A stretch of DNA of 64,000 nucleotides from Afipia sp. P52-10 (GTDB taxonomy: Bacteria > Pseudomonadota > Alphaproteobacteria > Rhizobiales > Xanthobacteraceae): NCBI RefSeq assembly GCF_000516555.1, contig NZ_AZSJ01000007.1, positions 1,041,836 through 1,105,835 of the forward strand, written 5' to 3'. Under the pieces are notes generated by a model. It was not told the DNA's origin, made no database searches, and was given only the letters and a program-made list of their open reading frames with translations. Position numbers and translations under genes: made by a program. The first letter of the stretch is position 1. The number at the start of each line of letters is the position of its first letter. This document shows positions 8,537-61,799 of this stretch, one piece after another.

Positions 8537-8908
8537 TTACTTCGGACGCTTCGCGCCGTACTTCGAACGGCGCTGCTTGCGGTTCTTGACACCCTGGGTA
8601 TCAAGCACGCCGCGGAGGATGTGATAGCGAACACCCGGAAGGTCCTTCACGCGGCCGCCGCGGATCATCACCACCGAGTGCTCCTGAAGGTTATGCCCCT
8701 CACCCGGGATGTAACCGATCACCTCGAAGCCGGTGGTCAGACGCACCTTCGCGACCTTACGAAGCGCCGAGTTCGGCTTCTTCGGTGTGGTCGTGTAGAC
8801 GCGGGTGCAGACACCGCGCTTTTGCGGCGACTGCTTCAGCGCCGGCACCTTCTTGCGCGACTTCTGAACGACGCGCGGATTTGCGATCAGCTGGTTGATC
8901 GTCGGCAT
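8537..8908 (-). CDS. rpsL: 30S ribosomal protein S12
   Basis: S12 monitors codon-anticodon pairing in the decoding centre. The 123-residue protein has [13 protein letters not shown] around residue 43 and [13 protein letters not shown] around residue 88. Both lysines whose replacement gives streptomycin resistance (K43 and K88 here) are in the wild-type, sensitive state. Asp89, the usual methylthiolation site, is present. It is the first gene of the str operon and has a long untranslated leader. Confidence 0.98.
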
Positions 8909-9387
8909 TGCTCGCCTTCATCCCTCATTCGCGCGAAGCTCACCCGCGAGCCTCGCAAAAAACTCAACAGGACCGGAAACCCGACCTGCAACGTGGCGCG
9001 CAAAACGAAACAACGCCAACCACTCGTCACCGAGCGGGAAGCGTTTGATCGCCACAGAGGACCTCAGAAGGCGAGAAGCCGACCGAGATCTTGCATTCGA
9101 AATCGACCCCGTGAGGAGGCCGACAATCGTCTTGGCATTGCCTGGCTTTGATCGACAGCGTTTGAGCGACTTTGGTCGAGGTTGGTGCCCGCTTCGCCGC
9201 CGAGACATCTCTCAAGCGAAAAAGGGGTGGTCCGTTCCGACGCCGCGTAGCTCACCGCCTGTCGTAAAGTGCGCGGGTTGTATCCAGCGCTTCAACGCAA
9301 GTCAAGGCATAAAACCAGCGTCAAACAAGCACTTCTATCGCCTCCCGAATCCACCGCGGCAGGTCCGGGGAAAATCGATTCTTCGGC
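8909..9387. other. str operon leader and promoter region (no gene)
   Basis: These 479 bases lie between rpsL and the DUF2239 gene. No convincing coding frame is seen. The right part holds a sigma70-like promoter (separate entry). The remainder would be a leader of several hundred nucleotides for the str operon. Confidence 0.6.
9277..9305 (-). promoter_or_regulatory. Candidate housekeeping promoter of the str operon
   Basis: On the minus strand TTGACT (9300-9305) is separated by exactly 17 nt from TACAAC (9277-9282), a good match to the alphaproteobacterial sigma70-type consensus. It points at rpsL about 370 nt downstream, so the transcript would carry a long leader. It is predicted from sequence only. 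Confidence 0.5.
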
Positions 9388-10014
9388 TCATGCGGCCGCG
9401 CTGACGACAGCGCCGCCGGCCAGCAGCCATCGCGCGTGATCACGAATGTCGACCGGCCAAGCCTCGGTAAGGCCGAAGAATCGCTCGCGATTGCCGGCAA
9501 ACAACGCCCGCGTCGCCTCCTCGAAATCGCTCAGATTGCCCGCCATCGCATGGATGAAGCGATATGTCGCCTCTTGCAGCCCCCTTTGCAAATCTTTGGA
9601 TTCGCTCAATTTTCTTTCTTTGTCGATCAGCTTTCGGATTGCCACGGATGCTCCGCCCGGCTGGGTGCCGAGCCATTCCCAATGCCGCGGCAGAAGGGTG
9701 ACCTCACGTCCGATCACGCCCAGTTTGGGACGGCCTGCCCGTCGGGCGCCTCCCTCGCCGTCCCCCGTATCGGCGATCGGAGTCGCTGGCGGAACCGAGA
9801 ATCGCTCGCCCAACCGTGACAAAACCTCGTCCGCGGTTCCGCGGAAATCGATCTCCACTGGCTGCGAGGTCGCGTTATCGAAGATGAGAATCGTCGTCGA
9901 ATCGTCCTGGTCGACGAATCGCTTGGTGGCTAACGCCACGTCGCGGATGGAACCTGTGGCCAGGCGGGCCTGCCCCGCGAAAGCCGTGCATGATTGCGGT
10001 TCGATGGGTAGCAT
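9388..10014 (-). CDS. DUF2239 family protein
   Basis: This 208-residue soluble protein is of unknown function. Recognisable DUF2239 features are the N-terminal SCTAFAGQARLATG segment, an ILIFDNAT...VEIDFRG strand pattern, and the GRPKLGVIGREVTLLPRHW stretch around the middle, followed by a helical C-terminal half. The ATG at 10012-10014 is chosen over an upstream TTG because GAGGAGA lies 6 nt before it. Two related near-palindromes in the promoter region suggest control by a dedicated repressor. Confidence 0.85.
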   Translation of the reverse strand: MLPIEPQSCTAFAGQARLATGSIRDVALATKRFVDQDDSTTILIFDNATSQPVEIDFRGTADEVLSRLGERFSVPPATPIADTGDGEGGARRAGRPKLGVIGREVTLLPRHWEWLGTQPGGASVAIRKLIDKERKLSESKDLQRGLQEATYRFIHAMAGNLSDFEEATRALFAGNRERFFGLTEAWPVDIRDHARWLLAGGAVVSAAA

Positions 10015-10038
10015 TGGAAATCTCCTCAAGATGAGAAG

Positions 10039-10081
10039 ATTATACCCGGATGAAATGTAACGTCAATATTATCCGGGTAAA
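10039..10081. promoter_or_regulatory. Paired operator-like palindromes upstream of the DUF2239 gene
   Basis: TACCCGGAT (10043-10051) and ATCCGGGTA (10071-10079) are exact inverted copies, 28 bp apart start to start. Each half is itself a near-palindrome around CCGG in the form TTAyCCGGrTAA. The surroundings are AT-rich compared with the neighbouring DNA. This looks like a double operator for a dimeric repressor; the regulator is not identified. Confidence 0.55.
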
Positions 10082-10129
10082 TTTATTTATGAGGACTCAG
10101 TTCGACTCCTAACTCTTCCTACTTCTCTC

Positions 10130-12136
10130 TTAGTCGTCGTCATCATCTTCGTCGTCATCATCCGCCTCGGGCTGCGCATGCGGTCGATGGATTTGATCCT
10201 CCCAAAGCTTGGCGTACGCGCCCCCTTTGGCCAGCAGTTCGCGGTGTGAGCCGCGCTCGGCCACCCGTCCGCCGCTGATGACGATGATCTCGTCCATATC
10301 GACCACCGACGTCAGGCGGTGGGTCGAGAAGATCATGGTGCGCCCTTTCGCCAGCGCGAGCAGTGTCCGATTGATCGCAGCCTCGGTGGTCTGGTCCAGC
10401 GCCGACGTTGCCTCGTCCAGCAGCAGAATCGAGGGATCGCGGACGATCGCGCGCGCGATCGCAATGCGCTGCCGCTGCCCGCCCGACAACGTGTCGCCAC
10501 GCTCGCCGACAACGGTGTCATACCCATCCGGCAGGCTCATGATGAATCGGTGAATCTCCGCCTTGCGCGCAGCCTCCTCGACCTCGTCGTCGGTGGCCCC
10601 TTCCTTACCGAGGCGGATGTTCTCGCGCAGCGACATGTTGAACAGCATGTTTTCCTGGAATACGACCGCCATGCTGCTGCGAAGGGAATCGCGCGTCACG
10701 CGGCGGATATCGACGCCGTCGATGGTCACCCGCCCCTCGGTCGGCGTGTAAAGACGCAGGATCAGATTGAGCAGGGTACTCTTTCCGGAGCCGCTCGGCC
10801 CGACCACCGCAACGCTGTGGCCAACGGGAATCTTCAGCGACAGATTGTCGATCACCGGATGGTCCGCCCCTTCGTAAGCAAAGGAGACGCGGTCGAAAGT
10901 GATGTCATGGGTAATGCGCGGCATATCGGGCGCGCCGGGACGGTCGGCTCCGCGCGCGGGCTCGTCCAACAACTCCTGCATGTGCTGGGTGGCGGCTGCC
11001 GCCTGGATCGCCACGGGAATGAAATGCATCAGATGGGCGATATTGTAGGAAATCTCCCAGAAGGCGCTTTCGAAGGTAACGAACGTCCCGATCGTGATCT
11101 GCCCGGTAGTCGCAAGATACGCGCCGATCGCCAAGACCACGAGATGCAGCAACAGCACCGAGATCGTGACGGTCCGCTCCACCATCGTCGAAAGGAACGT
11201 CGCGCGAACCATGCTGAAACGTGCCGCATGATTGCGCAGGGAGAACCAGCCAAGCGCCCGGCGCTGCAGGCCGAAGGCCTTCACGACCGCTTGCGCGCCG
11301 ACATTCTCCTGCACCACGCCGAGGATCGCCGCCTCATTGACCTTCTGCTCATAATTGGCCTGCACGGCCTTCGGGGTCAGGATGCGCGGTCCGATCAGCG
11401 TGATCGGGAAGATCAAGAGCGCCACAGCCGCGAGCTGCCAGTTCAGGTAGATCATCAGGCCGATGCCGGCGATGAGCTCCATGAACGGCAGCAGCGCACC
11501 ATTGGCGAGATGCTTGATCGAGCCTTCATACGCCGCGATATCGACCGAGAAGCGCGAAAGAACTTCACCCCTTTTGGTCTTGGCGAAGAAGGCCGACGGT
11601 AGGTTCTGGACATGCTCGAACAGCCGTGTGCGGACATCGGCAATGAGCCCGGATGATGTTCGCGCGTCCCACAGTTCGTACCAGACGGCGATGATCGAGG
11701 TGAAAACCCCGGCAACCGCGAGCACGATCAGGATCGTGTAGAGGACCTGAAGATCCTCCTCATTCAACGCGTCGTCGATGAGGAATTTGAGGCTCAACGG
11801 CATGATGACGTTGAACAGCGTTTCGACCAGGAGGCCGAAACCAACGATCGCCAGTCCCTTCTTGTAGTTCTTCAGGAACGGCAACGTGAAACGGTAGAGG
11901 GTCGCGAAAGCACCGGCCGCTTCGCGGGCGGTGAAGACGATCAGATCCTCATCGTCCTCATCGTCGTCAATATCCGCCGTCGCCTCGGACACCGGGCCGG
12001 TCTCGGCGAGCTTGTCCGGATCGGCATCGCCCGCCGCCGCTACAGGCTTCTCGGGCTGCGCCGGGTCGGCTCCGGCCATAGCTTCGCTATCGGGCGCCGG
12101 GCGCTCGTCTGATGGAGATTTCGGCGGCAACGCCAT
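10130..12136 (-). CDS. ABC exporter, fused permease and ATPase
   Basis: This is a 668-residue type IV (MsbA-like) half-exporter. After an acidic, low-complexity N-terminus of about 60 residues comes a six-helix transmembrane domain (about 75-390). The ATPase domain has Walker A GPSGSGKST at 446-454, signature LSGGQ at 550, Walker B ILLLDEA at 570-576 and the H-loop histidine in FSTHRLT. The C-terminus ends in a run of Asp/Glu residues, which is unusual. Acidic tails at both ends may face the cytoplasm. It works as a homodimer by family rules; the substrate is unknown. The gene lies downstream of the FAD-methyltransferase fusion on the same strand. Confidence 0.9.
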   Translation of the reverse strand: MALPPKSPSDERPAPDSEAMAGADPAQPEKPVAAAGDADPDKLAETGPVSEATADIDDDEDDEDLIVFTAREAAGAFATLYRFTLPFLKNYKKGLAIVGFGLLVETLFNVIMPLSLKFLIDDALNEEDLQVLYTILIVLAVAGVFTSIIAVWYELWDARTSSGLIADVRTRLFEHVQNLPSAFFAKTKRGEVLSRFSVDIAAYEGSIKHLANGALLPFMELIAGIGLMIYLNWQLAAVALLIFPITLIGPRILTPKAVQANYEQKVNEAAILGVVQENVGAQAVVKAFGLQRRALGWFSLRNHAARFSMVRATFLSTMVERTVTISVLLLHLVVLAIGAYLATTGQITIGTFVTFESAFWEISYNIAHLMHFIPVAIQAAAATQHMQELLDEPARGADRPGAPDMPRITHDITFDRVSFAYEGADHPVIDNLSLKIPVGHSVAVVGPSGSGKSTLLNLILRLYTPTEGRVTIDGVDIRRVTRDSLRSSMAVVFQENMLFNMSLRENIRLGKEGATDDEVEEAARKAEIHRFIMSLPDGYDTVVGERGDTLSGGQRQRIAIARAIVRDPSILLLDEATSALDQTTEAAINRTLLALAKGRTMIFSTHRLTSVVDMDEIIVISGGRVAERGSHRELLAKGGAYAKLWEDQIHRPHAQPEADDDDEDDDDD

Positions 12137-39887: not shown

Positions 39888-40188
39888 GGGCGATCCTCAC
39901 GCTTGGCTATTCTTGGAAACCTCTCGGTCATTTCTATACGTCGGCTCGATCCCTCAGCAAGCTGATTTGGTAAGCCTCATATGGCGAATTCGCAGGGCGA
40001 AATCCGCCGTGGCTGCGACCTTTTCGCCATTGCGGCAATGATCGAACAGACGGCCTGCGCTGCATCAACACGGCCGTGACACGCTTACACCGGCGGGCCA
40101 CGCGGCGTGCTAGCATTCCATCGACGGCGAGCGCGTGCGGCCTGCCGTGCCGCACCTATGGATACCTGATGGATTCGGGAGGCCGGTC
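39888..40188. other. Intergenic region (no gene seen)
   Basis: About 300 bases between the acyl-CoA dehydrogenase start and the 73-aa gene. It must contain the dehydrogenase promoter; I see no strong promoter match, hairpin or coding frame beyond a 32-codon frame at 39979 without support. Confidence 0.5.
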
Positions 40189-40410
40189 ATGACCAGGTCC
40201 GAGTTTGCGGCCGGCGCGGGCGTATGCCTGCTTGTCGCGTTGGCCGCTTGGGTGACAACTCCCTACGTGAACAGCCACATCCCTGAGCGCCTCTCGGCCA
40301 CCGCACCGACCGAGCCATGCTTTGACAAGGGTGGTTGGCAGAATTGGCCATGGCCCAATGTTCCATGGCTGTCCCCGCCCTGCCGGCCATCCGCGCCGAA
40401 GCAGAGTTAG
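40189..40410 (+). CDS. Small Trp/Pro-rich membrane-anchored or secreted protein
   Basis: This hypothetical protein has 73 residues. The ATG at 40189 has GGGAGG 6 nt upstream. Residues about 5-24 form a hydrophobic helix (signal anchor). The rest is short, with two cysteines and a tryptophan/proline-rich patch (GGWQNWPWPNVPW). Two cysteines 20 residues apart may form a disulfide in the periplasm. No family is recognised. Confidence 0.6.
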   Translation: MTRSEFAAGAGVCLLVALAAWVTTPYVNSHIPERLSATAPTEPCFDKGGWQNWPWPNVPWLSPPCRPSAPKQS

Positions 40411-40460
40411 CACGGCCCCCTGGTCCGAATTTTAAGGGCGGCAGGCGTTCCGGAAAGAAC

Positions 40461-40534
40461 TGGAGCGGGTGAAGGGAATCGAACCCTCGTATTCAGCTTG
40501 GAAGGCTGCTGCTCTACCATTGAGCTACACCCGC
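40461..40534 (-). tRNA. trnG: tRNA-Gly (anticodon TCC)
   Basis: A 74-nt cloverleaf on the minus strand runs from GCGGGTGTAGCTC to CACCCGCTCCA. The anticodon loop is CTTCCAA (TCC), the T-arm has GTTCGATTC, and CCA is encoded. The downstream flank (lower coordinates) has no sign of integration. Confidence 0.97.
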
Positions 40535-40836
40535 GTCGCGTTACGTATGCAACGGCTCCAGCGCGTTTGCAACGCCGCAATGCCGCGCATGATGATCCCG
40601 CATGTTCAGCAACCTGGGCGAAATCGTGGACATTTCGGCCCTAACACTGACCAACGCGGGCAGGTCCGGGCGGTCGTCTTGCGCTCGACTTTCAGTTCTC
40701 AATCTGTCCATATTTAAGAATCAGGTCATTGCAAATGGAATATTCGATATATTTTGCTCGCATCGATCGGTCTTTTCGCCATCAGCCTGACAAGCTCCTC
40801 GCAAGGACAAGCTCCGTTTCACAACTTCGCTCACGT
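40535..40836. other. Spacer with rising AT content (no gene)
   Basis: Some 300 bases between tRNA-Gly and the decayed paralogue. The right part (about 40700-40790) is AT-rich. No coding frame is convincing. It marks the edge of the island that ends at tRNA-Tyr. Confidence 0.5.
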
Positions 40837-41527
40837 CTATCTTCTCGTGAAATAAGGAACATTGACGGTGAAACGATCAGAGGCTCCTGATATTTGATCA
40901 GCTAATCCTTTAGCCCTCCACTCATCAATCCACCGAAGCTTTTGTTCAATTCCTCGCGTTACTGGTTCGCCAAACGGGCCGCCGATGTCGAATGGCCAGA
41001 AACCAACCGGAATTATCGTGAGCAACACGTCTTTCAGTCGATAACCTGCTCCGAACACTAAGGACATGTCTTCCACACGTACCACGCGGACGCTTTTAGG
41101 CTGCTCCAAATTATCGAACGTCACCAACGTTGGAATCAGATTTTGTTTGACGGAAACGGTGCCCTGCAGACTCCCAACCCTGCCAAAAGGCACTCGCTTC
41201 CCAGCAGCAGCAAACGCCTCCATAGCGAGATAGATTATTCCATCAGGATTCTCGCCATTTCTCCCAGAAGTCAAAGTCACAATTAGATTGCGACCGCGAC
41301 CGAGATCGAGAAAGATGGCATCGCCTTTCGCTGCAACCGCACCACCAAGTGGACCCAGGCGATTTTTCCCAAGTACGTAGCGATCACGCCCGAGGCTGAT
41401 TTCATCCCATCCGGCGTTTCGACTTCAATTTCGAGACGGTATTTGTGCTCAGGTCGAGTGAGATAGAGCCATCCGCCAACAGCAGCAGAATTACGACCAT
41501 CAGGCCGACAACGCGAGCGGATATCAT
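40837..41527 (-). pseudogene. Frameshifted paralogue of the 42108-42812 membrane-anchored protein
   Basis: Three frames in series give a protein alignable along its whole length with the intact neighbour. It starts MISARVVGLMVVILLLLA (like MISNRVIGG...), shifts near 41472-41476 to WLYLTRPEHKYRLEIEVETP, shifts again in the T-run 41363-41367 to NRLGPLGGAVAAKGDAIFLD, and continues to VFGAGYRLKDVLLTIIPVGF and GEPVTRGIEQKLR. Both shifts look like single-base losses. The C-terminal 147 codons remain open, but lack a start with a ribosome-binding site. The original product was a single-pass inner-membrane protein. Confidence 0.85.
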
Positions 41528-41877
41528 CGCAGCAGGCCCACAGCGCGGCGGATGGCCCGACAACAGTGCTCCCCCTTCGTAATGGAGCTTACTCCCGAAG
41601 AACGAATAGAAACGATTGCTGCATATAGGTCCCCACGCAAATAATAACGTTCTGCTCAAAACAAAGCATAAGGCCGACCGCCATCACAACGATCTGACAT
41701 TCTTATTCCAATCTCCGCGCACCCGTGACCCAATTGTGACCCACCCAGAAACCGGCGCATAACAAAACCCCAAAATTGCAACTCAAAACCGCATAGCGGT
41801 CTGCGTATAGCGTCAGTCGCAAGTGACGCCCGAACCGCCTCTATTCCGTATAAGATCGGCACTATACGCGACCATCC
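41528..41877. other. Unassigned spacer in the island
   Basis: About 350 bases upstream of the decayed paralogue. A 68-codon minus frame (41656-41862) has no recognisable domain and no ribosome-binding site. I see no repeat or RNA gene. Confidence 0.4.
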
Positions 41878-42101
41878 TTAGTGCCTTTCCCATTGGCGAG
41901 CGCGCATTCTTCGCAATTCATCGTTTGTTATTGGAGTGCCGAAGAAATCTCGTCTGAGCTCGTTAGCGTAGAAGAATTCATAATTAGAAAAGCATTACCG
42001 AGCGCAGCCTGCGTCCCAGGTACGTCTATCCCTTCGTTATAGCCCCGATTGTAGGCATCAAGAGCAAGTATGGCTCGAAAGAGATCGGATGATATCGGCA
42101 T
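41878..42101 (-). pseudogene. Frameshifted small gene (lipase-like N-terminal motif)
   Basis: Starting at ATG 42099-42101, 7 nt after the intact paralogue stops, the frame reads MPISSDLFRAILALDAYNRG and stops at 41928. After one shift near residue 40 the neighbouring frame continues YEFFYANELRRDFFGTPITN to a stop at 41878, giving about 75 residues in all. The FRAILALDAYNRGY start resembles the N-terminus of lipase-like proteins of this family, from memory only. A GAGG 9 nt before the ATG supports real translation. It could also be two small genes in different frames. Confidence 0.5.
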
Positions 42102-42107
42102 CTGAAG

Positions 42108-42812
42108 TCAACCTCTAATGAACTGTCCAAGTTCGGCGATATATGGATCATTCGGTCTATGGATTTGCATCACTTGAGAACGCTCACGAAGCCTAGCGAT
42201 AATCTCCGGAATCTTGTTTTCGATTCCACGCGTGACCGGCTCTCCCAGGACGCCTCCCCAATCAAATGGCCACAGACCAACAGAAACGACTGTCAGAGTA
42301 ACCTCTGACAGTCGGTAGCCTGCTCCAAAAACAGACTGAAGATCGTCAGGGCGCACGACTCTCGCGGTGGCGACGTCTTTCAAATCTACAAAGCTGACAA
42401 GTGTGGGAATATGATCACTTCCGACGGGGAGAGTTCTTCCAGCAAACTTATAGACATCCTGAAATGAAACTTTATGACCGGTCGCAGCTAGAACTTTCTC
42501 TGCAAGATATGCTATTGCATCGACATTCTCGCCTTTTTTACCCGCCGCCATAATCATAAAAAGGTTTCGCCCCTCACCCAGATTTACAAAAATAGCATCG
42601 CCTTTAGCGCCTATAGACCCGATGTGCGGTAACAAAGGCGGATCTTTGCTGAGATGAACCGAGACTACTCCAGATCCAGATTTAACTCCGAACGGCGTTT
42701 CTACGTTAATTGTCAGGCGGTACTTGTGATCTGGCCGCACAAGGTAGACCCACGCGCCGAACAGCAGAAGCGCAACGGCTACACCTCCTATGACGCGGTT
42801 GGAGATCATCAT
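42108..42812 (-). CDS. Membrane-anchored hypothetical protein (intact paralogue)
   Basis: This 234-residue protein has one N-terminal transmembrane helix (about residues 5-24) and, by the positive-inside rule, a periplasmic domain. Beta-strand-rich segments include KYRLTINVETPFGVKSGSG and GDAIFVNLGEGRNLFMIMAA; a conserved core reads VFGAGYRLSEVTLTVVSVGL and WGGVLGEPVTRGIE. It has no recognised family. A degenerate copy follows 580 nt further along on the same strand, so the locus arose by duplication. Codon use is less GC-biased than in flanking genes, suggesting recent transfer. Confidence 0.75.
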   Translation of the reverse strand: MMISNRVIGGVAVALLLFGAWVYLVRPDHKYRLTINVETPFGVKSGSGVVSVHLSKDPPLLPHIGSIGAKGDAIFVNLGEGRNLFMIMAAGKKGENVDAIAYLAEKVLAATGHKVSFQDVYKFAGRTLPVGSDHIPTLVSFVDLKDVATARVVRPDDLQSVFGAGYRLSEVTLTVVSVGLWPFDWGGVLGEPVTRGIENKIPEIIARLRERSQVMQIHRPNDPYIAELGQFIRG

Positions 42813-43261
42813 GGATTTACCAACGACCTCGCCGCGCCGAAAAACGTCGCAGAGAGTAGACGATTCAGATCGCTATAAGAATGGTTATGTGAAGCCGGTG
42901 AATTATACAGCAAGTTCAAATTAAACAGCCCGAACACAATTCGATGCGATGATAAAGCCGAATGAAGCATCAGACTAGCCACCTAATTCCCTTAGCTGAA
43001 TGTTACTACTCCCATAACCACCGAGGCTTGCGTGACTGTCCCTCGATCAGATTGATGTTCGCTGCGCTGGCGGATACGAATCATCTGCTTCAATTGTGCC
43101 GCCAGGTACAAAGATTGCACCCGCAACGCTGATGCTAACCGGCGGCAACGTGCGGTGTGCAGTCGCAGAACAGAACGCGAAACCACGATTGCTTACAGGA
43201 TTGATTACGGATTGCTTACAGGGCGGACCCGCTAGCTGAGAATTTCTCTGGAAAATCAAAT
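42813..43261. other. Non-coding end of the island next to tRNA-Tyr
   Basis: These 449 bases have no supported gene. The left half is AT-rich. Near tRNA-Tyr a 13-bp direct repeat GATTGCTTACAGG occurs at 43187-43199 and 43210-43222. No integrase or clear attachment site is found. Confidence 0.5.
43187..43222. repeat. 13-bp direct repeat near tRNA-Tyr
   Basis: GATTGCTTACAGG is repeated exactly with a 23-bp period. It lies 40 nt from the 3' end of tRNA-Tyr. It may be an integrase arm-binding site or a chance duplication. Confidence 0.5.
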
Positions 43262-43347
43262 TGGTGGGGGAGGCAGGACTCGAACCTGCGAAGCCATGAG
43301 GCGGCTGATTTACAGTCAGCTCCCTTTGCCACTCGGGACACTCCCCC
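43262..43347 (-). tRNA. trnY: tRNA-Tyr (anticodon GTA)
   Basis: An 86-nt tRNA on the minus strand, with a 7-bp acceptor stem GGGGGAG/CTCCCCC, anticodon GTA in the loop CTGTAAA, a long class II variable arm, a T-arm with GTTCGAGTC, and encoded CCA. The 3' end faces the decayed island. Confidence 0.96.
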
Positions 43348-43626
43348 GGAGCCGCAACGGCCGGATATTATGGCCCATTCCCGAAACGGGACTTTCGCGC
43401 AGGAGGCCCTGCGAATGCTTGCGGCGGGGCGGTTTATGGGCACCAGCCAGCCGGAAGTCAATAAAAATGGCCCGCCCTGTCGAAAAACCTTCAATTGTCT
43501 CAACATCGTGTGTGCCGATCCGCCGGACCGGCCACCTCCGCCTTGACCTGACCGCCGAAACCTTGAGATAGCCTGTTCGTTCCGGCCGCAGACGGCCGCC
43601 AACCGCCCTCCCCACGGAGCCTGTCA

Positions 43627-45111
43627 GTGACGCAACAGCGCGCGACCAATGTCAGCGCCAGCGGCGACGCGCCGGATCAGGCTGCGGCCGGCGGTCCCCA
43701 CTCCCCGCTGGAACAGCCGGGCAGTCCGACGCTGATCGCCCTGATCGTGGCGGCGGCGTTCTTCATGGAGATTCTGGATGCGACGATCATCGCGCCGGCG
43801 ATCCCGGAGATGGCCAAGAGCTTCGGCACCACCGCCGTCGCCGTTTCCACCGGCATCTCCTCATACCTGATCACGGTGGCGATCTTCATACCCGCCAGCG
43901 CCTGGCTGTCGGACCGCTTCGGCGCCCGGAACGTCTTCACCTTCGCCATCGCCCTGTTCACGGTCGCTTCGGTGCTGTGCGGCTTCAGCCAGACCCTGGA
44001 GCAGTTCACGCTCGCGCGCATCCTGCAGGGCATCGGCGGCGCGATGATGTCGCCGGTCGGCCGCATCGAGGTGATGCGACGCACCGACAAGGCCCAGCTT
44101 CTGCGCACCATCGCCTTTCTGACATGGCCCGGCCTCAGCGCACTGGTGGTGGGCCCGCCGCTCGGCGGCCTGCTGACCACGTATCTGTCGTGGCGCTGGA
44201 TCTTCTTCATCAACGTGCCGATCGGTATCCTCGGCATCGTGCTGGTGCAGGTTTTCTTCGATCGCGCCCGCAGGACCGCCGTCCGGCGGTTCGACCTGCT
44301 GGGATTCGCCCTGAACGGCGGCGCACTCGGCACGCTCATCTACGGCATCGAAAGCGTCAGTCGCAACGAATCGTGGATCGCCACGGTCGGGTTCATCGGC
44401 CTCGGCGCGATCCTCGGCTTTTTCGCCATCCGCCATGCCTTGACGCATCCGGCACCGCTGTTGTCGCTCGGTCCATTCAGCGTTCCCTCATTTGCGATCG
44501 GGACGCTGACCGGCGGCGGCCTGTTCCGCCTGTCCGCCAGCGGCACCGCCTTCATCCTGCCGGTGATGTTCCAGGTTGGCTTCGGCACGACGGCGTTCGC
44601 GGCCGGACTCTTGGTCGGCTGCTACCTTGCAGGCGATCTCGGCATCAAGATTGTCGCGAACCAGATCGTCCGCCGATTCGGTTTTCGCAACACCTTGCTC
44701 GGCGGCACCCTGGTCGTCGTGCTGGTCAGCATTCCGCTGCTGTTGATCAATGCGCGCACCTCGCTCTGGATCGTCATCCCCGTCCTCGTCGCCGTCGGTG
44801 CCAGCCGCTCGGTGCAGTTCACGGCGCTGAACTCGTTGATCTTTGCAGAGTTGCCCGCCGAGCAGATCGGCAGCGCCTCCGCGTTGAACAGCATGTCGCA
44901 TCAGGTGTCATCCGGCATCGGCGTCGGACTCGCCGCGGTGGCGCTGGCGCTGTCCTCGCTGTCGCAAGGGCACGGCGGCGGCTCGTTGAGCATGCTGGAC
45001 TTCCGCGTCGCCCTGGGCTTCACGCTGTTGCTGGCCCTGGCCGCGGTGCTTTTCTATAGTCGGATGTCACCGCAGACCGGGATGCAGGTGACGGGACATC
45101 GCCCGCGTTGA
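43627..45111 (+). CDS. MFS drug exporter, DHA2 (EmrB/QacA) family
   Basis: This 494-residue inner-membrane H+ antiporter has about 14 predicted transmembrane helices. Motif A appears as WLSDRFGARN after helix 2, and the antiporter motif C as LVVGPPLGGLL in helix 5. The first helix has the DHA2-typical FFMEILDATIIAPAIPEM with an acidic residue. The start is GTG at 43627, with GGAG about 8 nt upstream. No adaptor or regulator gene is adjacent. rlmB follows 16 nt later on the same strand. The substrate is unknown. Confidence 0.92.
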   Translation: MTQQRATNVSASGDAPDQAAAGGPHSPLEQPGSPTLIALIVAAAFFMEILDATIIAPAIPEMAKSFGTTAVAVSTGISSYLITVAIFIPASAWLSDRFGARNVFTFAIALFTVASVLCGFSQTLEQFTLARILQGIGGAMMSPVGRIEVMRRTDKAQLLRTIAFLTWPGLSALVVGPPLGGLLTTYLSWRWIFFINVPIGILGIVLVQVFFDRARRTAVRRFDLLGFALNGGALGTLIYGIESVSRNESWIATVGFIGLGAILGFFAIRHALTHPAPLLSLGPFSVPSFAIGTLTGGGLFRLSASGTAFILPVMFQVGFGTTAFAAGLLVGCYLAGDLGIKIVANQIVRRFGFRNTLLGGTLVVVLVSIPLLLINARTSLWIVIPVLVAVGASRSVQFTALNSLIFAELPAEQIGSASALNSMSHQVSSGIGVGLAAVALALSSLSQGHGGGSLSMLDFRVALGFTLLLALAAVLFYSRMSPQTGMQVTGHRPR

Positions 45112-56877: not shown

Positions 56878-57585
56878 TCAGCCATCTGCGTCGTCCCGCA
56901 CGGCGCTCTCATTCTCACGTTGATAGCCTTGCTCGCAGTGCGCCTGCATACCCCGCCACACCTCGACTGGCCCCCAGCCCTCCTCGGTGATACGGCGGAC
57001 CAGATCGTTGACGAAATCGATCTCGGCCTTCAGCAGGGCCGAACGATACTCGCTCTCGACCATGAAGATTGCAGGAAATTTCTGTCCTAATAGCGGCGCC
57101 GGAAGATCCTGATTAGGTTCAGCAAGCTCACCTAACGTCATATCCGACAGCTGGCCGGCCAGCGCCTGCATCTGGGTCAGATTCTCCGACAGCCGCTGCA
57201 CGCGCTCGCGCAGCATGGCGACGGCTTCGTCCGGCGGCAGCACCGGCAGCAGCGACAAGGCCGCCTCGAACTGGACGAACTCCTTCGCCGGCTGCGCAAT
57301 CAAGTCACGCATCCAGCTCCGTAGCAGATCACGCCCCGCCGGCGTCAGCGCGTACACGGTCCGCTCCGGCCGCTTGCCGTCGCGAGAGGTCTCCTTGGGC
57401 CGGATCAAGCCACGGGACGTCAGCAGCTCGATCACTGTATAGAGCGTCCCGTACCGCAGCTTGATGCTCTCGTGCTTGTGTCGATGCTTGAGCGTCGCTG
57501 CCATCTCGTACGGATGCATCGGACGTTCAAAGATCAACGCCAGCACGGCCAGCGCCAGGGGATTTGACCGAGTCTTCGCGGACAT
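56878..57585 (-). CDS. PadR family transcriptional regulator
   Basis: This 235-residue winged-helix repressor has a PadR N-terminal domain (ALAVLALIFERPMHPYEM, then RYGTLYTVIELLTSRGLI) and a C-terminal helical dimerisation region. It heads the efflux operon. The ATG 57583-57585 has no ribosome-binding site; the predicted transcription start is at or next to the A of ATG, so the mRNA may be leaderless. A perfect palindrome over the -35 box suggests autorepression. Confidence 0.9.
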   Translation of the reverse strand: MSAKTRSNPLALAVLALIFERPMHPYEMAATLKHRHKHESIKLRYGTLYTVIELLTSRGLIRPKETSRDGKRPERTVYALTPAGRDLLRSWMRDLIAQPAKEFVQFEAALSLLPVLPPDEAVAMLRERVQRLSENLTQMQALAGQLSDMTLGELAEPNQDLPAPLLGQKFPAIFMVESEYRSALLKAEIDFVNDLVRRITEEGWGPVEVWRGMQAHCEQGYQRENESAVRDDADG

Positions 57586-57591
57586 GGGCGA

Positions 57592-57626
57592 CTAATATCC
57601 GCATCCAATATATCCGTCAACGGATA
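57592..57626 (-). promoter_or_regulatory. PadR operon promoter with overlapping operator
   Basis: TTGACG (57615-57620) and TATTAG (57592-57597) are 17 nt apart on the minus strand. The perfect inverted repeat TATCCGT-CA-ACGGATA (57611-57626) covers the -35 box. Repression by blocking polymerase is the natural reading. The same region may influence the divergent gene at 57806. Confidence 0.65.
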
Positions 57627-57805: not shown

Positions 57806-59146
57806 ATGAACCGCTGGGTATCCGTCACACCTGCACCGACGGGCGACTATGCAGCGGACAGCGTCCGCTTTTCCCGCTTCTGGCTCGAAGGCCTGGCGTG
57901 CCTCGACACTGCTCCGCCCCGCCTTCAACGTGATGCGTCCGACAAAGACGCCGCCGACGCGCTGCTCCGGCAGGCCCGCAGCACGCGGCAAGACTTCCTG
58001 CGCGCCCATGCGGCAAAGCTGTATCGCGACCTCACTGACGATCTGCAAACCTTCCGCCGGGTCGAGGAACTGGCGACACTCGCTGCCGCGAAAGTCCCAG
58101 GTCTCTGCCCGAGCCCCGATTACATCGCGCGCGAGGCGGCGTTGCCCCAGGCCGGCAAGGATGGCCACGAGATCGACCAGGGCCTGTTCTTCCATCATGT
58201 GCTCGCCGACACCGATTGCGGCCGGCATCTCTGTCACGCGATGCTGTTGCCGCGGCGGGAAGCGCTCGACCAGCTCGACCTTCTCAAGCGGCATGGCCAC
58301 ATCGATCTCGGTGCCGCGATGGTGGAGCGCCGAGGCAAGGCTTCGTTCGTGACGATGAACAACAGCCGCTACCTGAACGCCGAGGACGACGGCACGGTGG
58401 CCGCCGTCGAAACCGCCGTCGATCTCGCTTTGCTCGATCCGGCAACGTCGGTCTGCGTGCTCCGCGGCGGCGTCATCGAGCACGGCAAATACGCAGGACA
58501 GCGGGTGTTCTCGACCGGCATCAACCTCACTCACCTCTATCGGGGCCGGATTTCCTACCTCTGGTATCTCATTCGCGATCTTGGCTTCGTGAATAAATTC
58601 TATCGCGGTATCGCCAGACCCGAGGCCATTCCGGACGACGTGCATGGCGAGACCATCGAGAAGCCTTGGATTGCAGCAGTGGAAAAGTTCGCCATCGGCG
58701 GCGGCTGCCAGTATCTGCTGACGATGGACTACACCATCGCGGCGAGCGACGCCTACATGACACTGCCCGCCCGCAAGGAAGGCATCGTGCCGGGCGCCGC
58801 CAATCTGCGGCTGCCGCGCTTCGTCGGCGATCGCATCGCCCGCCAGGCCGTGATGACCGGACGCCGCATCGATTGCGACAGCCCCGAAGGCCTTTTGATT
58901 TGCGACCGCATCATCGCGCCGGATGACATGGACGGCGCGATCGACGGAACCGTCCACGCCCTCACCACCTCCGGCGTCGTCGGCATTGGCAGCAACCGCA
59001 AGGCCTTCCGCGTCGCGCAGGAGCCGCTGGACCTGTTCCGCAACTACATGGCCGTGTACGCGCGCGAGCAAGCCGCCTGTCATTTCTCGCCGGCCCTGAT
59101 CGACAATCTCGAGCGCTTCTGGAACGCGCGTGAGCGCGCCGCATGA
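57806..59146 (+). CDS. DpgC-like cofactor-free dioxygenase (enoyl-CoA hydratase superfamily)
   Basis: This 446-residue protein aligns by eye over most of its length with DpgC, the metal- and cofactor-independent 3,5-dihydroxyphenylacetyl-CoA 1,2-dioxygenase of glycopeptide producers. It has a helical N-terminal domain (about 1-160), then a crotonase fold with FSTGINLTHLYRGRIS (235-250), the oxyanion-hole segment FAIGGGCQ (295-302) and ARKEGIVPGAANLRLPRF (322-339). The C-terminal YAREQAACHFSPALIDNLER is also DpgC-like. The ATG at 57806 follows GGGAGGG by 4 nt. No other dpg genes are nearby, so the true substrate may be another aryl- or acyl-CoA. Confidence 0.85.
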   Translation: MNRWVSVTPAPTGDYAADSVRFSRFWLEGLACLDTAPPRLQRDASDKDAADALLRQARSTRQDFLRAHAAKLYRDLTDDLQTFRRVEELATLAAAKVPGLCPSPDYIAREAALPQAGKDGHEIDQGLFFHHVLADTDCGRHLCHAMLLPRREALDQLDLLKRHGHIDLGAAMVERRGKASFVTMNNSRYLNAEDDGTVAAVETAVDLALLDPATSVCVLRGGVIEHGKYAGQRVFSTGINLTHLYRGRISYLWYLIRDLGFVNKFYRGIARPEAIPDDVHGETIEKPWIAAVEKFAIGGGCQYLLTMDYTIAASDAYMTLPARKEGIVPGAANLRLPRFVGDRIARQAVMTGRRIDCDSPEGLLICDRIIAPDDMDGAIDGTVHALTTSGVVGIGSNRKAFRVAQEPLDLFRNYMAVYAREQAACHFSPALIDNLERFWNARERAA

Positions 59147-59221
59147 TCCACCGATTGTGACCGTTTACCGCTCGTCGAGACGGCGTATATTTCGTTCAAC
59201 GAACATGAACGGGAGGCCCGG

Positions 59222-60910
59222 ATGGAGACGCTCAGCCACGTCATCGGCGAGGAGCAGCCGCCTTTGCTGGAGCATACCATCGGCGAGGCGCTCGACATGG
59301 CCGTCGCCAAATGGCCGGACGCCGAGGCGCTTGTCTCCGCGCACCAAGGCCTGCGCTTCACCTGGACGCAATTCGCCCGCAAGGTTGATGATTTCGCCGC
59401 AGGACTGCTGGCGCTGGGGCTCCGCCCCGGCGATCGCGTCGGCGTCTGGGCGCCGAACTGTGCGGAATGGACCATCGCGCAATTCGCCACCGCGCGCGCC
59501 GGCCTGATCCAGGTCAACATCAATCCCGCCTATCGCACCTCAGAGCTCGAATACACGCTGGCGAAGGTCGGCGTGCAGGTGCTGATCTGTACGGATCGAT
59601 TCAAGACCAGCGATTACATCGCGATGGTCGAAGGCCTCGTGCCCGGAATCGCCACATCGGCCGGCCAGCCGCTGAATGCGGCGAAACTGCCGATGCTGCG
59701 CCATGTCATCCAGATCGGCGGCACGGCGCGCCCCGGCTGGCTGATGTTCGATCAGGTGCCGTCGCTCGCGACCGCCCGGGAGCGAGCGCAGCTTACCGCG
59801 ATCGGCCCGACGCTCGACCGCAACGATGCGATCAACATCCAGTTCACGAGCGGCACCACCGGCTTGCCGAAGGGCGCCACCCTCTCCCACCGCAACATCC
59901 TCAACAACGCTTACTTTGTCGGTCTCGGTATGGGCCTGCGCGAAGGCGATCGCCTGTGCGTGCCCGTTCCGCTCTATCATTGCTTCGGCATGGTCATGAG
60001 CAATCTCGCCTGCCTCGTCCATGGCGCGACCATGGTTTATCCCTCCGATGCATTCGACCCGATCGCGGTCCTGCGAACCGTCGAGGCCGAGCGCTGCACG
60101 GCGTTGCATGGCGTACCGACCATGTTCATCGCCGAACTGGAACATCCCGAATTCGAACGCTTCGACCTGTCCTCCTTGCGCACCGGCATCATGGCGGGCT
60201 CGCCCTGCCCGATCGAGGTGATGAAGCGGGTGATCAGCCGCATGCATATGACCGAAGTCGGCATCGCCTATGGCATGACCGAGACGAGCCCGGTCAGCTT
60301 CCAGACATCCAACACGGATTCCGTCGAACGGCGGGTCTCGACCATCGGCCGCGTGCAGCCGCACCTGGAGGTGAAGATCATTGATGCGGCTGGAGCCACC
60401 GTGCCGCGGGGAACAGCCGGCGAGCTCTGTACCCGCGGCTATTCGGTGATGCTGGGCTATTGGAACGATCCCGAGAAGACCACCGAGGCCGTCGATGCCG
60501 AGGGCTGGATGCACACCGGCGATCTCGCGGTGATCGATGCGGAGGGCTACGGCAACATCGTCGGCCGGTTGAAAGACATGGTGATCCGCGGCGGCGAGAA
60601 CATCTATCCGCGCGAGGTCGAGGAATTCCTGTTTCGCCATCCCAAGGTGGAGGATGTGCAGGTCGTCGGCGTCCCGGATGCCAAATACGGCGAGGAAATC
60701 TGCGCCTAGATCAAGCTGCGCGCGGGCGAAACGTCGAGCGAAGACGAGATCATCGCCTTCTGCAAGGGGCAGATCGCGCACTACAAGGTGCCGCGCTATG
60801 TGCGCTTCGTCGATGGCTTCCCGATGACGGTCACCGGCAAGATCCAAAAATTCCTGATCCGCGACGCGATGATCGAGGAACTGAAGCTGCGGATTCAACA
60901 GACGGCTTAG
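59222..60910 (+). pseudogene. Acyl-CoA ligase (AMP-binding) interrupted by an in-frame TAG
   Basis: The frame encodes a 562-residue fatty-acyl- or aryl-CoA ligase, except for a TAG at 60707-60709 (codon 496). Upstream are the phosphate-binding [10 protein letters not shown] at 209-218, the AYGMTET segment, and [20 protein letters not shown] in the hinge. After the TAG the same frame goes on for 66 codons with [20 protein letters not shown] and the catalytic lysine K540 (TGKIQK). The position normally holds Trp (EEICAWIKL), so a single TGG-to-TAG change explains it. A truncated product would lack the adenylation lysine. It lies 75 nt after the DpgC-like gene. A sequencing error or read-through cannot be excluded. 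Confidence 0.85.
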
Positions 60911-60947: not shown

Positions 60948-61799
60948 CTAGCCGCGCTTGGTCTCGGCAATCGTTCGCATGTTGTCGAGCGCGTGACCGA
61001 ACAGACGCGCATCATGTTCGGCGGGATAGACCGCGTAGGCCGGCAACAGGAATTCCGGGGCGTCGCGAACGACCGTGAGCATCTTCGTGCGCAGATGGCG
61101 CTGAATGGTTCGCATCGGGAAATAACCCGAGCCGCCATTCAGCAACACATGCTGCAGCCCGAGCCAGCCGATGTTCGCCGTCACGGCAGCGCCCTCGTAG
61201 TTCGGAAACAGCGCGCCGTGCCGCGCCTGAAATTCCGGCCCCCAATCGACGTAGACGTAACCAGGTTGCGGCTCCGGCTTGCTCCGGCGATCGGTCGAGA
61301 CCAACACGAGCCTCTCCTCGAACAGCTGTTCCACCTTCAGCCCCGGACGGCTCTGTGGCGTGTACATCACGCCGATATCGACGCGCCCCTCGACCAGTCC
61401 TTGCATGATCTCGGCCTCAAGGCCGATTTCGGCCCGAACGGAGACATCCGGACTGCGCGTTCGCATCAACGGCAGCCACTCCAGCAGGAACTCCTCCCAA
61501 AGACCGATGCGGCCGCCCACCACCAGCGTCCCCAGGAAACCTTTCGGAATGCCGATGTCGTGACGCGCCTGCTCGACCGTTCTCACCAGCGTCGAAGCAT
61601 GCCGCTGGAACTGCCGCCCCGCGGCCGTCAGCGTCGTGCCAGCCTTGTTGCGCACGAACAGTTCGCAACCGAGCTGCTGTTCCAGCGTTTGGATCCGGGT
61701 GCTGACGGTCGATTGACTGACGTGCAGGCGCTCGGCGGCGTTCACGAAATTGCCGACCGCGATCACAGTCAGGAACGTGCGTGCCAGCTCGGTGTCCAT
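60948..61799 (-). CDS. LysR family transcriptional regulator
   Basis: This 283-residue LysR-type regulator has an N-terminal winged helix (ERLHVSQSTVSTRIQTLEQ) and a substrate-binding domain from about residue 90. It is slightly short for the family (usually about 300). It is convergent with the acyl-CoA ligase gene, so it does not read into it; it may control the divergent PAS gene or the ligase/DpgC pair. The effector is unknown. Confidence 0.9.
   Translation of the reverse strand: MDTELARTFLTVIAVGNFVNAAERLHVSQSTVSTRIQTLEQQLGCELFVRNKAGTTLTAAGRQFQRHASTLVRTVEQARHDIGIPKGFLGTLVVGGRIGLWEEFLLEWLPLMRTRSPDVSVRAEIGLEAEIMQGLVEGRVDIGVMYTPQSRPGLKVEQLFEERLVLVSTDRRSKPEPQPGYVYVDWGPEFQARHGALFPNYEGAAVTANIGWLGLQHVLLNGGSGYFPMRTIQRHLRTKMLTVVRDAPEFLLPAYAVYPAEHDARLFGHALDNMRTIAETKRG

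Follow-up and report, generated by a model that had tools for sequence, protein, structure and literature searches.

Glycopeptide biosynthesis involves DpgC, a (3,5-dihydroxyphenyl)acetyl-coenzyme A (CoA) 1,2-dioxygenase (PDB 2np9, 4ylh and 2pg8) that is described as needing neither metal nor cofactor to convert 3,5-dihydroxyphenylacetyl-CoA to the glyoxylate (PMC3849588). A second dioxygenase, PglA of the L-phenylglycine operon for pristinamycin, is reported to turn phenylacetyl-CoA into benzoylformyl-CoA, followed by thioesterase cleavage (PMC7089894; Table 1 of the same paper labels PglA a dehydrogenase). The anaerobic degradation route leads from phenylacetyl-CoA via phenylglyoxylyl-CoA and phenylglyoxylate to benzoyl-CoA (PMC9765128); PadBCD (phenylacetyl-CoA:acceptor oxidoreductase), a molybdenum-iron-sulfur enzyme, carries out there, without O2, the same conversion that we propose below. 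Under oxic conditions, the product of the ligase PaaK is taken by PaaABCDE (phenylacetyl-CoA epoxidase), a multicomponent ring epoxidase (PMC9007349). Here we analyze a 64,000-nucleotide (nt) stretch of Afipia sp. P52-10 (contig NZ_AZSJ01000007.1, positions 1,041,836 to 1,105,835; hereafter the window), which carries a gene for a DpgC-like protein of 446 amino acids (aa) ahead of an acyl-CoA ligase gene. Our best explanation, held with moderate confidence, is that the proteobacterial clade of this protein is catabolic, acts on arylacetyl-CoA and replaces the epoxidase, and that the window gene is an intact but orphaned member of it.

A full-length DpgC homologue

The 446-aa window protein is a full-length homologue of DpgC, in agreement with the preliminary description of the locus, which had called it DpgC-like from the bare sequence. 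Its open reading frame (ORF) is intact, its top profile is NCBIfam NF042432 (DpgC; 432.4 bits, compared to 78 for the best hydratase model), and it is by far the strongest match to this profile in the source genome (432 bits; runner-up 66). A sequence search of the PDB returned DpgC as the closest entry (E 7e-99). The predicted structure (mean predicted local distance difference test score, pLDDT, 88) matches DpgC 4ylh with Z 51.1 and a root-mean-square deviation of 1.8 over 417 aligned residues at 43% identity, and the alignment spans model residues 12–440, so that the whole-length DpgC fold including the N-terminal helical domain is present.

The crotonase domain PF00378 detected in the protein would also suit an ordinary enoyl-CoA hydratase or isomerase, a reading that we consider barely credible. 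Besides the gap between the two profile scores, the best ordinary crotonase reaches only E 2e-15 in the PDB sequence search; best hits to such hydratases, named beforehand as the result that would speak against a DpgC-like protein, were thus not obtained. Against the predicted model, the best ordinary crotonase attains Z 27.7 over 237 residues, with an alignment that begins at model residue 153, and no single-domain crotonase in the structure table aligns before about residue 152, whereas DpgC aligns from residue 12.

The three pocket residues singled out for an alignment check in the preliminary description, E193, R257 and Q302, are in place (Table 1). We take their counterparts in DpgC to be E189, R254 and Q299, which presumably line the pocket. 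R254 is the residue mutated in PDB 2pg8, according to the title of that entry. Across 36 other alignment rows, E193 and R257 are each conserved in 34 (28 of 30 other proteobacterial and all six actinobacterial rows), and Q302 in all 36 (30 of 30 and six of six). The window protein thus has its fold, its length and the equivalents of these residues in common with DpgC, and differs from it in the 43% identity, in a profile score below the curated NF042432 cut-off (530 bits) and in Cys 301. This cysteine recurs in 29 of the 30 other proteobacterial rows; the six actinobacterial rows have Ala, Thr or Met instead. In the homologues of two loci, L052 and L057, E193 (to Met or Ile) and R257 (to His) are lost jointly; the two residues may act together, or the substrate of these homologues may differ. 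With the confidence stated above, which is a joint figure for the whole explanation, we predict from sequence and structural model that the product of the window gene is a DpgC-family dioxygenase which works without metal or cofactor.

Relatives: tree, neighbourhoods and co-occurrence

A scan of the genome collection yielded 23 loci (19 proteobacterial, at 53–64% identity, and four actinobacterial), and the gene was found in 17 of 101 relatives and in 59 of 296 genomes of the same family. Plasmid records gave 15 matches, each below 60% identity, 12 of them in Streptomyces. Besides the window, 52 distinct proteobacterial loci were compared: 19 from the collection scan, 13 and 19 further fetched ones, and one from a plasmid (L095 was dropped as a duplicate of L010). 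Neighbouring genes were located by tblastn with marker proteins; an ORF filter based on GC content by codon position missed the lower-GC loci L021–L023.

A PaaK-like ligase lies at most 400 nt from the dioxygenase gene in 22 of the 52 loci, and the one in L010 exceeds the TIGR02155 cut-off (710 bits versus 646). Ligases of a second, dedicated clade occur in 11 loci, weak matches in L062 (28%) and L109 (34%) being excluded, and IorA is found within 6 kilobases (kb) in 11, ten of them with the dedicated ligase; altogether, 34 loci have at least one of these three partners. An FlK-type thioesterase (a label taken from Pfam hits of two copies) is present in 13 loci, and BoxB together with BoxC, both over their cut-offs, in one (L054, which also has a PaaK-like ligase). 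Four loci carry a PadB-like molybdoenzyme no more than about 6.2 kb away from the dioxygenase gene. PadBCD was not adopted as a firm label for these, their PadB-like and PadC-like proteins being only 27–28% and 41–42% identical to the proteins beside PadI in L090; it is further weakened by a second PadI locus, L091, that has no PadB match. PDB sequence searches gave no match for IorA and only distant molybdoenzymes for the PadB-like protein.

The larger tree places the window gene beside the IorAB and dedicated-ligase loci L092 and L009 and beside L093 (support 99/97; also 96/94): L092 and L009 carry a ligase-IorB-IorA-thioesterase block, and L093 is a short contig. The examined proteobacterial rows make up a clade of their own, separate from the actinobacterial rows (100/99), and their neighbours are mostly catabolic. 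L017, from a record titled as a Bordetella parapertussis metagenome-assembled genome (MAG), has a PaaK-dioxygenase pair and groups with the betaproteobacterial MAGs L013 and L024; its species label looks doubtful.

These placements bear on a biosynthetic role, in which the arylglyoxylate formed by the enzyme would go into a phenylglycine-type amino acid of a secondary metabolite. DpgC itself is located in such an actinobacterial cluster, as is the homologue in Streptomyces L064 (7920–13957), followed there by E1 alpha and beta subunits, a thioesterase, MbtH and an aminotransferase, which is the order published for the L-phenylglycine operon (PMC7089894). From this order, PglA appears to be a DpgC homologue, in an operon that is biosynthetic, unlike the proposed role of the window clade. 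DpgC with companion genes has also been described in Xanthomonas, a proteobacterium (PMC3849588; those sequences lie outside our trees). We nevertheless regard a biosynthetic role as very improbable for the window gene, given the separation from the actinobacterial clade and the mostly catabolic neighbours. As previously noted for this locus, other Dpg genes are missing: no DpgA, DpgB, aminotransferase or peptide synthetase was detected among the 14 window proteins to which the search was confined (48–64 kb), and the sole DpgD match, at 76 of 400 bits, comes from the dioxygenase, whereas L063 has dpgA and dpgB. An exception within the proteobacterial rows is perhaps L062 (Tistrella mobilis plasmid pTM3, 7715–13137), where genes that by eye resemble those of a carrier protein, methyltransferase, adenylating enzyme and acyl-CoA dehydrogenase precede the DpgC homologue, possibly for biosynthetic use.

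Co-occurrence was assessed genome-wide with cut-offs of E ≤ 1e-60 for the dioxygenase, IorA and PaaA and of 1e-100 for PaaK and BoxB. PaaK and BoxB were searched in the 101-genome set; the 296-genome set covers the dioxygenase (five best candidates scored per genome), IorA (three best) and PaaA. The 101 relatives show PaaK in 15 of 17 genomes with the dioxygenase versus 39 of 84 without, IorA in 13 of 17 versus 23 of 84, BoxB in 15 of 17 versus 31 of 84, and PaaA in 0 of 17 versus 32 of 84. All 32 PaaA genomes carry PaaK, and the 54 PaaK genomes divide into 32 with PaaA only, 15 with the dioxygenase only, none with both and seven with neither (Fisher p 2e-8). Across the 296 family genomes, PaaA is found in 2 of 59 with the dioxygenase compared to 116 of 237 without (p 2e-12), and IorA in 50 of 59 compared to 62 of 237 (p 1e-16). 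Epoxidase and dioxygenase are therefore nearly mutually exclusive in the family studied. Eight genera mix dioxygenase and PaaA genomes, and in six of these no genome holds both genes. When the 17 dioxygenase genomes are joined by 13 reached via loci (13 of the 16 non-duplicate proteobacterial collection loci; L018, L024 and L025 were left out), PaaA was found in none of the 30. Tistlia consotensis USBA 355 (L014) and Lacisediminimonas profundi CHu64-6-4 (L016) are two such strains in which the dioxygenase gene is linked to IorAB.

A putative aerobic route for arylacetates

The route that we propose combines the chemistry of DpgC, of PglA and of anaerobic phenylglyoxylate metabolism. Phenylacetate would be activated to phenylacetyl-CoA by the PaaK-like or the dedicated AMP-forming ligase found in relatives, and the DpgC-like enzyme would use O2 for oxygenation of the alpha carbon of an arylacetyl-CoA, most likely phenylacetyl-CoA, giving an arylglyoxylate (here phenylglyoxylate). 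CoA could be released by the enzyme itself, as in DpgC, or by the neighbouring thioesterase. An IorAB-type 2-oxoacid oxidoreductase would then probably decarboxylate phenylglyoxylate to benzoyl-CoA, which would enter the box pathway, and the sequence as a whole would replace PaaABCDE. The predicted IorAB step is the weakest, because IorAB is reported in PMC9765128 to make phenylacetyl-CoA from phenylpyruvate, a function that would also explain its co-occurrence with the dioxygenase. The preliminary description had already suggested a catabolic path from an arylacetate via its CoA ester to an arylglyoxylate; the general idea gains support from the neighbourhoods in relatives and from the genome-wide co-occurrence, and is not supported for the window pair (see below).

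Several observations weigh against this explanation. All six proteobacterial homologues scored (the window protein and five others) fall under the NF042432 cut-off, which is passed by L063 (572 bits) and L028 (735 bits), with L064 (523 bits) below it. L052 and L057, without E193 and R257, still retain a PaaK-like neighbour. As many as 18 of the 52 loci have none of PaaK, dedicated ligase and IorA, and for the ten of these 18 whose sequence extends 8.5 kb or more to either side, the absence of partners is real at that range. The window genome and the same-genus genome G001 show neither PaaK nor IorA, and G437 and G461 hold both PaaA and the dioxygenase gene (the homologue in G437 is divergent, and the G461 assembly is 69% complete). 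Counts across related genomes are not independent, the p values ignore relatedness, and the two genome sets overlap (G000–G060 are in both). The published PglA product is benzoylformyl-CoA and not the free acid (PMC7089894). Finally, several ligases adjoining the dioxygenase score under the TIGR02155 cut-off, and once PaaK is defined by this curated cut-off its enrichment is gone (6 of 17 versus 37 of 84, p 0.6), which lowers the weight of our explanation and raises that of another substrate. The exclusion persists at this cut-off (PaaA only 32, dioxygenase only 6, both 0, neither 5; p 8e-5).

In the alternative just named, the chemistry would be the same on another arylacetyl-CoA, such as hydroxyphenyl- or indole-acetyl-CoA, and IorAB would act upstream, from arylpyruvate to arylacetyl-CoA. 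The phenylpyruvate reaction reported for IorAB of Aromatoleum (PMC9765128) fits this order and likewise speaks against our route, and the IorA of L009 has a sub-threshold match to TIGR03336 (indolepyruvate oxidoreductase alpha). The low scores of several PaaK-like neighbours make their substrate less certain, and position 300, beside the pocket glutamine, is variable (G/H/S/A). The near-exclusion of the phenylacetyl-CoA epoxidase, in turn, points to phenylacetyl-CoA, and the BoxB enrichment together with the BoxBC locus L054 points to benzoyl-CoA downstream; we therefore rate another substrate as unlikely, and retain phenylacetyl-CoA as the preferred one. The broader proposal, that a DpgC-family dioxygenase, an IorAB-type enzyme and the box pathway replace the epoxidase in an undescribed aerobic route for phenylacetate that operates in many alpha- and betaproteobacteria, is more tentative than the best explanation itself, and falls somewhat short of probable. 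Among the matches listed in our search of the open-licence literature, no paper proposing phenylacetate catabolism by the DpgC family was found. A 2026 survey of phenylacetate pathways notes ligase loci without epoxidase (PMC13186573); the literature search listing gives zero occurrences of "phenylglyoxylate" for it.

The locus in the source strain

The features of the window locus are collected in Table 1. The ligase starts 75 nt after the dioxygenase gene, just as first described, but does not run to 60910 as had been assumed: that position closes the next in-frame stop (60908–60910), and an amber codon ends the ORF earlier.

Table 1 Features of the DpgC-like locus in window coordinates
Feature	Coordinates	Strand	Basis
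PadR regulator gene	56878-57585	-	profile scan
DpgC-like dioxygenase gene, 446 aa, intact	57806..59146	+	ORF, profile, PDB match, alignment, predicted structure
E193 codon, aligned with the Glu of the DpgC LNAED motif	58382..58384	+	alignment
R257 codon, taken as the equivalent of DpgC R254	58574..58576	+	alignment
Q302 codon, invariant glutamine	58709..58711	+	alignment
Acyl-CoA ligase ORF, PRK12583-like, 495 aa, ended by in-frame TAG (60707-60709)	59222..60709	+	
Ligase in-frame remainder (rest of AMP-binding_C), untranslated without readthrough	60710..60910	+	
LysR regulator gene	60948-61799	-	profile scan

The ligase ORF keeps only positions 1–31 of the 76 of AMP-binding_C, and its C-terminal domain is thus incomplete. 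The catalytic lysine of ANL-type acyl-CoA ligases sits in the lost part. Identity to five relatives is as high beyond the stop (59–67%) as before it (59–65%), which leaves three readings of the stop: a recent change, an error of sequencing or a codon that is read through. A ligase homologue in L076 (genome G093) likewise has one in-frame TAG, at a different position; owing to this internal stop, it was omitted from the second ligase tree. In both trees, the window ligase falls outside the clade of dioxygenase-linked ligases (support 100/100) and groups with ligases located elsewhere in genomes (best identity 65%); to nine ligases that accompany the dioxygenase it is 41–49% identical. L096 (genome G437), where a ligase of the window kind lies 289 nt from a divergent dioxygenase homologue (49% identity; 8548–11763), leaves room for a link between the two.

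No PaaK-like or dedicated arylacetate ligase was found at the window locus, which also lacks the other clade partners, IorAB and the thioesterase. Genome-wide, the source genome (G000) contains no PaaK (E ≤ 1e-100), no IorA (E ≤ 1e-60) and no PaaA (E ≤ 1e-60), the last in line with its proposed clade, and does contain BoxB. G001, which has its own dioxygenase homologue at 60% identity, shows the same marker pattern. Since the ligase is truncated and outside the linked clade, and the genome is without PaaK and IorA, the window pair is not the conserved pair and probably not a working pathway. For the dioxygenase gene of the source strain, we infer that the most fitting description is an orphaned clade member with an intact reading frame.

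A further reading, compatible with this explanation at the level of the clade, is that the locus in the source genome is a relic or a part-acquired fragment, with the dioxygenase still intact for no other reason than that loss is recent, and the ligase unrelated and already inactivated. The in-frame stop and the undiminished identity past it, the failure to find PaaK and IorA in the genome, and the ligase-IorAB block, present beside the close homologues at L092 and L009 and missing from the window, would all fit such a history. The dioxygenase ORF is nonetheless intact and keeps its pocket residues, its branch in the tree (0.46) was not one of those flagged as long, and the genome carries BoxB; we consider a relic quite possible, if on balance rather doubtful.

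The PadR and LysR regulator genes noted earlier near the pair are present; that they belong with it is not supported, as a tblastn search (E ≤ 1e-10) of the other locus stretches, 53 including one duplicate, matched neither them nor two flanking transporter proteins. A perfect inverted repeat (TATCCGT-2 nt-ACGGATA, 57611–57626) lies between padR and the dioxygenase gene and may be a candidate operator for PadR. Another (TTCGTT-C-AACGAA, 59191–59203), inside the 75-nt gap preceding the ligase, is absent upstream of 12 related ligases, and no operator common to ligases of the window kind was found among them; the window ligase may have its own regulation. Elsewhere in the window, positions 40001–44000 have a G+C fraction of about 0.55, versus 0.60–0.66 in the rest, and contain two small ORFs that are alike by eye (40837–41280 and 42108–42812).

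The wider pattern across relatives is more interesting than the window pair. The gene could explain how PaaK bacteria that lack PaaABCDE use phenylacetate, as 15 of the 54 PaaK relatives have it and no epoxidase. If the proposed route is correct, cofactor-free O2 chemistry would take place in mainstream carbon metabolism, with a single protein providing entry to arylglyoxylates, and a kind of enzyme characterized from antibiotic biosynthesis would have a much wider catabolic life.

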